From assembly GCA_012837285.1 (NCBI GenBank), contig DURJ01000153.1, forward strand, positions 1 to 51,942: DNA of 51,942 bases, read 5' to 3'. Under the pieces are notes generated by a model. It worked only from the letters and a program-made list of their open reading frames with translations. It was not told the DNA's origin and did not search any database. Position numbers and translations under genes: made by a program. This document shows positions 3,853 to 37,925 of this stretch, piece by piece. The stretch's first letter is position 1. Each line of letters starts with the position of its first letter. The stretch comes from Bacillota bacterium (GTDB taxonomy: Bacteria; Bacillota; DTU030; DUMP01).

Positions 3853-4598
3853 GGCTGATCACCTGCTTGCACCAACAGCGCGGTAACGTTGTCATGGCCG
3901 CCTTGCTCCAAAGCCTGTCGAACCAACTCCTCCACTGCTTGCAACGGCGGTAAAGACTTCAGTACAGCTTCGATTTCACTATCGGCAAGCTCCCCGGTGA
4001 GCCCGTCGGTGCAGAGCAAAAATAAGTCCCCAGGCATAGTCGGTAACCAAACCCGATCAATGGACAGATCGGGGGCAGTGCCTAAGACTCTGGTCAAAAG
4101 ATGCCGCTTAGGATGATGTCTGGCCTCGGCCGAGGATATGGATCCCATATTAACCAACTCCTGGACCAAAGAATGGTCATCCGTCAACTGACGGAGCTTT
4201 CCTCCCCGGAATAAATAAGCCCTGCTATCCCCTACGTGGGCTATTTCTGCTGTCCCATCAAGCAAGCACAGGGCGGTAACTGTTGTGCCCATACCGAACA
4301 AACCGCGGTTGTCTTGGGCGCGAAGAAATACTTGGTTGTTTGCACTTTGCACCGCAGCATGAAGTGCCAGGTGAACGGGCACTGTCTTCTTGCTCTGAGC
4401 CTGGTTTTCCATTTGCGCCGTAACATACTGCTGAATCACAGTGGCAGCGAGCTGACTTGCTACCTCTCCAGCCTGGTGACCGCCCATTCCGTCAGCTACC
4501 AGAGCCAAATACCAGTTTTCTTCTCCCCCCAGCCAGAACGCATCTTCATTGCCTGATCGGACCTTACCTGCATCTGTCCGTGCCCATCCTGCCAGCAC
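3849..4598 (-). CDS. prpC: PP2C-type Ser/Thr phosphatase PrpC
   Basis: Metal-dependent cytoplasmic phosphatase that reverses phosphorylation by the PASTA kinase. PP2C motifs occur in order: TDAGKVRSGNEDAF near the N-terminus, VADGMGGHQAGE carrying metal ligands, HVGDSRAYLFR, LLCTDGLTGEL and GGHDNVTALL at the end. The start used is GTG 4598 rather than an in-frame GTG at 4607, because the latter lies inside the Shine-Dalgarno sequence GGGGAGG, which is 8 bases from 4598. That choice gives 249 residues and leaves one base after the stop of the small ORF upstream. It is coupled by GTGA overlap to the SEDS gene. Confidence 0.94.
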   Translation of the reverse strand: MLAGWARTDAGKVRSGNEDAFWLGGEENWYLALVADGMGGHQAGEVASQLAATVIQQYVTAQMENQAQSKKTVPVHLALHAAVQSANNQVFLRAQDNRGLFGMGTTVTALCLLDGTAEIAHVGDSRAYLFRGGKLRQLTDDHSLVQELVNMGSISSAEARHHPKRHLLTRVLGTAPDLSIDRVWLPTMPGDLFLLCTDGLTGELADSEIEAVLKSLPPLQAVEELVRQALEQGGHDNVTALLVQAGDQP

Positions 4599-36443: not shown

Positions 36444-36490
36444 TGTCATCCTGAGCGAACTTAAGACTCTTCACTGCGTTCAGAGGGACA
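36444..36490. repeat. Degenerate REP-like palindromic element
   Basis: Left arm TGTCATCCTGAGCG and right arm CGTTCAGAGGGACA pair at 10 of 14 positions. The words match a dispersed intergenic palindrome (TGTCATTCTGAGCG type) that I recall from several bacterial genomes. It lies in the gap between ylmC and pgeF. No second copy was seen in this window. Confidence 0.5.
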
Positions 36491-36604: not shown

Positions 36605-36871
36605 CTAGCGCGATAAGGGAGGAAGTGAGGGGCGTTCCACTAAAATCACGTCTTGCCCGATGCGCTTGATCTTATCCCACGGTATCACTATATCTTCGTT
36701 ACGGCCAAAAATGCTAAACATCCCCCTTGGCCCAGGAACAACGATGGCTCTTAGCCTGCCGCTCTCCAGGTCGATATCTACATCTACCACAGCGCCCAAT
36801 TTACGGCCATCACTGATATTAATCACTTCACGGGTACGAAGTTCCGAAGTGCGAACTAAAATAGCCCTCAC
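36605..36871 (-). CDS. ylmC: YlmC/YmxH-family PRC-barrel sporulation protein
   Basis: Small PRC-barrel protein of the YlmC/YmxH family, associated with sporulation gene clusters but of unknown biochemical function. Signatures are SELRTREVINISDGRKLG, a central VDIDLESGRLRAIVV, FGRNEDIVIPWDKIKRIG and DVILVE. The annotated GTG start (36871) overlaps its own Shine-Dalgarno GGGGAGGTGAGG, so the real start may be the ATT four codons in; no ATG is available before the conserved region. A 7-bp hairpin at 36874-36896 lies just upstream. It follows the sigG cluster, as in Bacillus. Confidence 0.85.
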   Translation of the reverse strand: MRAILVRTSELRTREVINISDGRKLGAVVDVDIDLESGRLRAIVVPGPRGMFSIFGRNEDIVIPWDKIKRIGQDVILVERPSLPPLSR

Positions 36872-36873
36872 CT

Positions 36874-36896
36874 CCCCACAGTTAGTATATGCGGGG
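36874..36896 (-). other. Hairpin upstream of ylmC
   Basis: On the transcribed strand CCCCGCA and TGTGGGG can pair over seven positions (one G-U) around a nine-base loop. The right arm contains the GGGG of the ylmC ribosome-binding site, so the fold could mask it. Observed by eye only. Confidence 0.4.
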
Positions 36897-36913
36897 TAGG
36901 CTTGTTCTAGTGC

Positions 36914-37069
36914 TTAAACTTTGGGTTCTAAGCGAAGGCCAGCCGCAGCCTCATAGGGAAAAAGGTTCGTACTGTTAAAAGCCTTCACCGCGCTCCGGCT
37001 GTGCCGGGCGAATAAATAGCCCGACACGATAACAGCGCCCACCAGCAATACTACCAAGAACCGGCGCAT
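36914..37069 (-). CDS. Small membrane protein downstream of sigG, 51 residues, unrecognised
   Basis: Short open frame starting at ATG 37069 with AAGGAGG exactly eight bases upstream; that site begins right after the sigG stop, so the two genes are probably one transcript. An N-terminal hydrophobic helix (residues 4-20, FLVVLLVGAVIVSGYLF) is followed by a basic ARHSRSAVKAF and a polar tail ending RLEPKV. It could be a signal-anchor protein with the tail outside the membrane. No family is recognised. Its place between sigG and ylmC suggests expression during sporulation, possibly in the forespore; this is inference. Confidence 0.7.
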   Translation of the reverse strand: MRRFLVVLLVGAVIVSGYLFARHSRSAVKAFNSTNLFPYEAAAGLRLEPKV

Positions 37070-37082
37070 ATCATCGACCTCC

Positions 37083-37865
37083 TTACGGAGAACTGAGATG
37101 ACGTTTAAGGCGCTCCAGAGCCGCCTTCTCCAACCGTGAAACTTGAGCTTGAGAAATCCCTATTTCCTCGGCTACTTCCATTTGGGTCTTACCGTGAAAG
37201 AACCGGAGGTTCAAAATATGGCGCTCGCGCTCATTGAGCTTGTGCAGAGCTTCCCGCACCGCCAATTCCTCCACCCAATTGCTGTCCAGTTCTTTTTCGT
37301 CTTTGACCTGGTCCATGACGAAAATAGGATCTCCGCCATCATGATACACCGGTTCAAACAAGGACAGCGGTTCTTGGATGGCATCCATGGCAAATACCAC
37401 ATCTTCCCGGGGAAGCTTGAGCTCGCAGGCAATTTCCCCGATAGACGGCTCCCTACTGTAGCGGGTAACTAGGGTATCACGGGCCTGCAGGGCCTTGTAG
37501 GCTGTATCTCGGAGTGAGCGGCTGACACGAATGGCATTATTGTCACGCAGATAGCGGCGAATCTCACCCACGATCATGGGCACAGCATAAGTGGAAAATT
37601 TTACATTCTGCCCCAAGTCGAAGTTGTCAATAGCTTTCATTAAGCCGATACAACCTACTTGAAACAAGTCATCGACATTTTCGCCTCTGTTGTTAAAGCG
37701 TTGGATCACACTTAGAACTAACCGCAAATTACCCCCAATTAGCTTCTCCCGAGCCGAAACGTCACCAGCCATTAAGGCACGAAAAAGTTCGCGCATTTTA
37801 GCATTGGACAGCACCGGGAGTTTGGCCGTGTTGACGCCACAAATCTCAACTTTGTTAACTAGCAT
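37083..37865 (-). CDS. sigG: RNA polymerase sporulation sigma factor sigma-G
   Basis: Late forespore sigma factor. It begins with NKVEICGVNTAKLPVLSNAK, the conserved sigma-G N-terminus; region 2 has GNLRLVLSVIQRFNNRGEN and DLFQVGCIGLMKAIDNFD; region 4 ends with GISQAQVSRLEKAALERLK. The start used is ATG 37865, giving 260 residues as in B. subtilis; GGGAGGGG lies upstream with a short spacer. Its ribosome-binding site and AUG lie in one arm of a 15-bp hairpin whose other arm follows the sigE stop (37861-37925). A sigma-F-like promoter sits between (37896-37924). Confidence 0.97.
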   Translation of the reverse strand: MLVNKVEICGVNTAKLPVLSNAKMRELFRALMAGDVSAREKLIGGNLRLVLSVIQRFNNRGENVDDLFQVGCIGLMKAIDNFDLGQNVKFSTYAVPMIVGEIRRYLRDNNAIRVSRSLRDTAYKALQARDTLVTRYSREPSIGEIACELKLPREDVVFAMDAIQEPLSLFEPVYHDGGDPIFVMDQVKDEKELDSNWVEELAVREALHKLNERERHILNLRFFHGKTQMEVAEEIGISQAQVSRLEKAALERLKRHLSSP

Positions 37866-37925
37866 AAAACCCCTCCCGGAAGGCAACCTAATTTCAGTAT
37901 TGCCACCAAAGAGAGGTTTTATGCT
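37861..37925 (-). other. Read-through hairpin sequestering the sigG start
   Basis: On the transcribed strand AGCATAAAACCTCTC (37925-37911) pairs along all 15 positions with GAGGGGTTTTATGCT (37875-37861), one pair being G-U. The second arm contains most of the sigG Shine-Dalgarno and its AUG. The loop holds a further GGCAA/TTGCC pairing. Transcripts reading through from spoIIGA-sigE would carry both arms; transcripts from the internal promoter would lack the first. It lacks a U-tract, so it is unlikely to be a terminator. Confidence 0.75.
37896..37924 (-). promoter_or_regulatory. Sigma-F-type promoter of sigG
   Basis: GCATA (37920-37924), 15 bases, then GGCAATACT (37896-37904), which fits the sigma-F -10 pattern GGnnAnAnT at every fixed position. 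The start site would lie near 37889, about 24 bases before the sigG AUG. Confidence 0.7.

Follow-up and report, generated by a model that had tools for sequence, protein, structure and literature searches.

The window, by which we mean the whole stretch of 51,942 nucleotides analysed here, contains a small gene between sigG and ylmC. All three genes are on the reverse strand. The upstream gene, sigG, which presumably belongs to the same transcript, is found at 37083-37865 (TIGR02850 above its cut-off, E 1e-144), and ylmC/ymxH follows the small gene at 36605-36871 (TIGR02888 above its cut-off, E 7.7e-29). The small gene itself, which we call mini-SpoIIR, or simply mini, is a frame of 51 codons plus stop at 36914-37069; it starts with ATG and has the product MRRFLVVLLVGAVIVSGYLFARHSRSAVKAFNSTNLFPYEAAAGLRLEPKV. 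Its Shine-Dalgarno sequence, AAGGAGG (37078-37084, same strand), overlaps the TAA stop codon of sigG (37083-37085) and ends eight bases before the ATG. The original prediction, made from the letters alone, had described the frame, the ribosome site and the placement between sigG and ylmC in just this way. Frame and site are present as claimed, and the two model matches confirm the neighbours.

The protein presents two arginines, a hydrophobic stretch at residues 4-20 (37010-37060, reverse strand), a short charged linker and the tail AVKAFNSTNLFPYEAAAGLRLEPKV. The hydrophobic stretch is more variable than the tail. Its mean Kyte-Doolittle value is 2.66, and the two arginines precede it; both features support a signal or anchor helix for export, as had been proposed. 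Residues 27-36 (36962-36991, reverse strand) read AVKA|FNSTNL: a putative signal-peptidase I site, [VI]xA, where we infer cleavage, followed by a [YF]NxxNL motif. The protein reaches the cut-off of no Pfam or NCBIfam model. Its best matches are at chance level, far under the cut-offs (LINES_C, E 0.03; small_EYxxD, E 0.04; VC2662_fam, E 0.06), and the SpoIIR domain (TIGR02837 / PF09551, Spore_II_R) gives no Pfam or NCBIfam match at E ≤ 1. Nine further minis, described below, have no Pfam or NCBIfam match above cut-off either, and none to the SpoIIR domain at E ≤ 0.05. The sequence supports a small unannotated protein, probably inserted in the membrane, as the original prediction had it, or exported.

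Sigma-F promoters have the consensus GYWTA-N15-GGNNANANTR. A single match is found in the window, GCATA-N15-GGCAATACTG at 37895-37924 (reverse strand), upstream of sigG; 0.16 matches are expected, and 14 of 100 shuffled sequences contain one or more. The same type of consensus is found ahead of sigG in the five loci tested of the window's family (f1), the window included, and the strict consensus is absent from the four loci tested of the sister family f2. Co-transcription of the mini with sigG, which had been suggested before, and expression in the forespore are likely from these sites.

Other features surround ylmC. Ahead of this gene, at 36868-36916 (reverse strand), a GCATATA box is invariant in the seven f1 loci aligned, and is followed by a G-rich ribosome site. 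Its place is taken by TTCATATATATA or TCATATATATA in f2 and by CTCATATAT in Syntrophaceticus (L199, about 3995-4025). The box is possibly the -10 region of a ylmC promoter. We have also considered a conserved RNA hairpin before ylmC, and have rejected it as weak: only one of its 10 pairs has a two-sided change which keeps the pairing. In two f2 loci, a terminator-like stem with a T run is seen by eye between the mini and ylmC, at approximate positions (L017, about 1440-1475; L015, about 1365-1400); in L017 the mini frame runs into the stem.

We have searched 61 related genomes with the mini. Eight of them, including that of the window (G000), belong to family f1. Homologous frames in close relatives, as expected for a real gene, are present: seven of the eight genomes have the frame between sigG and ylmC, with E 5e-5 or better. 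In the eighth, G004, the contig begins inside the mini gene, at the codons for LEPKV and the stop. One further contig scan, with the window protein as query, found no relative. All seven readable members have retained the frame, the place of its start and a GGAGG-type ribosome site, and none of the other five reading frames across the mini is open in all seven, so the frame goes beyond what chance would leave.

Most pairs of minis have a dN/dS ratio well below 1. Three pairs within genus g2 give 0.22-0.28, and their tails show pN 0.04-0.07 against pS 0.43-0.48. Pairs in family f38 give 0.18, 0.20, 0.21 and 0.33 (the last on two changes), the f91 pair 0.27 and the f53 pair 0.20; the five pairs of these three families with more than three changes range from 0.18 to 0.27. 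Several wider f1 pairs are saturated or near 0.4-0.5, and the Desulfoscipio-Sporotomaculum pair has 0.67 on three changes. The f1 pair with the lowest dS is the window's own (G000-G002), and here the expectation of selection is borne out less well, with a ratio of 0.59. In this pair the helix part shows no visible constraint (pN 0.32, above pS 0.27), and the tail has 0.18 non-synonymous vs 0.49 synonymous. Tails are conserved inside families and different between families. Judging from these comparisons, the mini frame is a real gene, with a polar tail under purifying selection.

The origin of this gene is apparent from its relatives. Four of the five f2 genomes have a frame of 81-90 codons at the place of the mini, with the motif [VI]xAYNTxNL; the fifth, G011, has no ylmC match and a partial sigG, and is outside this count. 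A profile built from the 11 minis of f1 and f2 finds many matches directly downstream of sigG over 398 genomes of the phylum. A good part of these matches are 200-290 codons long and correspond to SpoIIR: They have a helix, AYNxxNLIRLHVIANSD, and then the SpoIIR domain. Against circularity, a second profile was built from no other sequences than the N-terminal parts of 58 full-length SpoIIRs whose genes follow sigG. It was run over 3958 frames (at least 38 codons, six reading frames) from the fetched loci. At E ≤ 1 it has 36 matches under 130 codons, two of which are a single G002 gene, and every one is found right after sigG. The window frame has E = 0.0012 and its relative in G006 2.2e-7. 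Since all short matches of this SpoIIR-only profile adjoin sigG, the 51-residue protein corresponds to the N-terminus of a sigG-linked SpoIIR. The first SpoIIR strand is recognisable in the minis of G003, G006 and G007 (NLLRFEAVA vs NLIRFHVIA).

By sequence, then, the mini is the front end of SpoIIR, that is, the export helix and [VI]xA[YF]NxxNL, without the SpoIIR domain. It shares with SpoIIR the place in the genome directly after sigG, which is found in many Bacillota (sigG-spoIIR-ylmC), and the N-terminal helix and [YF]NxxNL segment which precede the domain in sigG-linked SpoIIR. The original prediction left the function open, and its reader missed the SpoIIR identity; a truncated SpoIIR narrows the question considerably. 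We consider it very probable that the mini is a functional, exported forespore mini-protein derived from SpoIIR.

The domain missing from the mini is encoded elsewhere, as mini genomes have a separate full-length spoIIR. In the window's genome it is found on contig 158, away from sigG, with its own sigma-F-type consensus upstream, GTTTA-N15-GGTAACAATA (L251, about 4298-4327, reverse strand). Full SpoIIR is away from canonical sigG in 32 of the 34 genomes of mini lineages (f1, f2 and others); none was found in the fragmented assemblies G005 and G007, possibly owing to the fragmentation. In five of these 32, belonging to f53, f54 and f69, the full spoIIR directly follows a second, diverged sigG-like gene: G138 (L078), G262 (L282), G263 (L081), G068 (L083) and G369 (L072). 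Four of the five second sigma proteins were scored, and their best match is SigG, under the TIGR02850 cut-off, which is passed by the sigG adjacent to the mini in f53, f54 and f69. These three families seem to have duplicated an entire sigG-spoIIR block.

Double copies of full SpoIIR are also found. We looked at 46 genomes chosen for long frames: 40 of them have a single SpoIIR, the other six two or three. Five f29 genomes have one full SpoIIR at sigG and one elsewhere (L245-L249 vs L151 and L257-L260; also L040), which is the state expected before truncation. In G184, copy L250 follows the better sigG match, while copy L256 follows a diverged sigG-like gene whose best match is SigG, under the TIGR02850 cut-off. 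The canonical sigG of this genome is followed by full spoIIR, not by a mini, and the two SpoIIR rows are sisters on the SpoIIR tree. We should also note a third SpoIIR in G151, after another sigG-like gene on contig C5, which is possibly foreign to that bin. A separate observation is a dispersed repeat, GTCATCCTGAGCGAA..., at 36445-36459 (forward strand) of the window, between ylmC and the next gene. The GTCATCCTGAGCGAA word has seven exact copies in the genome, one of them at 3221-3235 of contig 158, about 480 bases from the unlinked spoIIR.

The distribution of the motif among full SpoIIRs depends on the locus. Its strict form is found before the core in 35 of 59 SpoIIRs beside canonical sigG vs 1 of 55 elsewhere, in a set gathered without regard to the motif. 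A further linked set (12 of 13 with the motif) is biased, since it was picked by a motif-bearing profile, and is outside the count. The sole motif-bearing SpoIIR away from canonical sigG is the G184 copy beside the diverged sigG-like gene; the G343 SpoIIR presents a near miss (YQKDNL). The other 24 of the 59 SpoIIRs beside sigG are without the motif. In lineages without any mini, unlinked SpoIIR is equally motif-less (17 of 17). The motif thus goes with the sigG locus and not with SpoIIR function as a whole, and its loss is not specific to mini lineages. As far as the sequences go, what is found in mini lineages is a complementary loss: One copy has the domain and the other has the motif.

An AlphaFold model of the sigG-linked SpoIIR of Syntrophaceticus (224 aa, mean pLDDT 79) has a helix at 2-24, the motif at 31-36 and the first strand from 37. 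This predicted position, directly ahead of the first domain strand, suggests that the motif is tied to SpoIIR structure. With this model as query, a fold search of the PDB yielded nothing at E ≤ 0.001, and a sequence search for a solved SpoIIR structure found none, with two chance-level matches.

Signal-peptidase sites are marked by the -3/-1 rule. Counting back from the aromatic residue, 31 of 33 minis have V or I at -3, and 32 of 33 have A at -1; the corresponding figures in motif-bearing full SpoIIR are 15 of 46 and 43 of 46. The 33 minis do not include the near-identical G231 and L181, and the 46 full proteins include the motif-bearing G184 copy. V/I at -3 is far more regular in minis than in full SpoIIR (Fisher p 3e-8, uncorrected for kinship). 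These residues look like a signal-peptidase I site, and cleavage there would release between 14 and 59 residues as a peptide; for the window the figure would be 21.

We have fetched 80 sigG loci, where the next gene is a full spoIIR in 40, a mini in 21 and neither in 18. A frame cut by the contig end in G333 is outside the 21 minis (22 by script), and G361, one of the 18, has only 100 bases. These loci are not a random sample: They represent about one per family from some 150 listed places, plus loci which the profile of the 11 f1 and f2 minis had flagged, or whose family it had flagged. Minis are found in nine families besides f1 and f2, which makes 11 sampled families. In a set of 80 named loci, of which 52 were examined, there are three minis, in a Desulfoscipio geothermicus bin (L177), Sporotomaculum syntrophicum FB (L181) and Desulfallas sp. 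Bu1-1 (L185). The 18 loci with neither gene after sigG indicate that sigma-E activation does not generally depend on the segment.

One region of the sigG tree (Desulfallas, Desulfoscipio, DeMMO5 and Pelotomaculum) contains mini, full and empty sites alike. On this tree, which lacks four of 90 rows (G094, G080, G057 and G049), the minis require five changes, of which well-supported branches force only one. On the SpoIIR tree, the label beside or away from sigG changes six times, two of them forced; this tree lacks 8 of the 58 linked rows (no clean core), 3 of the 13 further linked and 5 of the 32 unlinked ones. Repeated truncation of spoIIR to a mini is likely, a single origin less so.

How would the mini work? 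The sigma-F-type promoter would direct its synthesis in the forespore, alongside sigma-G, and the product would enter the forespore membrane or cross it. Signal peptidase I may then cleave A30|F31, so that a peptide of 21 residues reaches the space which separates the forespore from the mother cell. The mini would then act in trans on the SpoIIR-SpoIIGA step which activates sigma-E, supplying the docking segment which is no longer present in the relocated SpoIIR: Two genes would share the roles of one ancestral protein. This work beside relocated SpoIIR is the likeliest mechanism, which we propose only tentatively.

Known systems offer some guidance. As described in PMC13174948, B. subtilis SpoIIR is made under sigma-F, and its N-terminal helix can be exchanged for other membrane segments. 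The same paper presents the site of action of SpoIIR as disputed, the candidates being the space between the membranes and the interior of the mother cell; if SpoIIR acts inside the mother cell, an intermembrane peptide would not fit. A precedent is SpoIIT (YwmB), reported in PMC4703394 as a second forespore protein for efficient sigma-E activation in B. subtilis, secreted and aiding the same step as SpoIIR. We have set aside the possibility that the mini is SpoIIT itself: According to that report, SpoIIT is YwmB, encoded beside murAA, while the mini gene adjoins sigG, so that the two are set apart by locus alone. SpoIVB and CtpB, which according to PMC13174948 leave the forespore and set off the pro-sigma-K step later on, resemble the mini in forespore export to act on a mother-cell membrane protease complex. 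Nevertheless, they are proteases, and the mini has no recognised domain.

Other explanations must be weighed. It is possible, though doubtful, that the mini is independent of sigma-E activation and is secreted from the forespore as a peptide which has a receptor of its own. The YNxxNL peptide would come into play later, in the sigma-G stage, with the intercell channel or engulfment as conceivable targets, a second role which sigG-linked SpoIIR would also have. The presumed co-transcription with sigG, the near-invariant -3/-1 residues of the minis and a motif which tracks the sigG locus, not SpoIIR function generally, all agree with this. However, we have found no partner, and the modelled full SpoIIR has its motif directly before the first domain strand. 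A broader proposal, which we regard as rather unlikely, would make the minis a new family of peptides secreted by the forespore. Freed by signal peptidase I, these peptides of 14-59 residues would start with [YF]NxxNL and serve as a separate intercellular sporulation signal, once part of SpoIIR and set free from it, probably several times, when another locus took over the production of the SpoIIR domain.

The truncated protein might also be a brake: it would bind SpoIIGA or the septal site, cause no activation there, and thereby limit or end SpoIIR signalling once sigG is on. The mini retains the anchor and the motif without the SpoIIR domain, and in B. subtilis sigG is made after the early sigma-F genes, both of which suit a brake. 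Helper and brake are nevertheless indistinguishable by sequence, and we consider the brake improbable.

It is more improbable still that the mini is a decaying, functionless relic, left behind after spoIIR moved. The mixture of the three kinds of site (mini, full, empty) within a single region of the sigG tree, the tails which differ between families and the 0.59 ratio of the window's lowest-dS pair would agree with decay, but the frame, start and ribosome site are intact in the seven readable f1 members, pairs from four families have dN/dS of about 0.2, and tails are conserved within families. Finally, a frame which serves the mRNA only, protecting or coupling the translation of sigG and ylmC with an irrelevant peptide, would explain why the ribosome site overlaps the sigG stop, but in the codon alignment the motif codons have synonymous changes while the residues are kept, which makes this very improbable.

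In summary, a truncated SpoIIR which would work beside the relocated full protein is the reading we prefer. A literature search of titles and abstracts found no description of such minis. They represent a small, recurrent sporulation protein missed by the Pfam and NCBIfam models searched (10 members tested). The activation of SpoIIGA by SpoIIR is unsettled, and a 2026 paper argues for moving the action into the mother cell. In 11 sampled families the N-terminal segment of SpoIIR has been split from the domain, and both have been kept, at two loci: The role of the segment may therefore be tested directly, with a gene of 50 codons.
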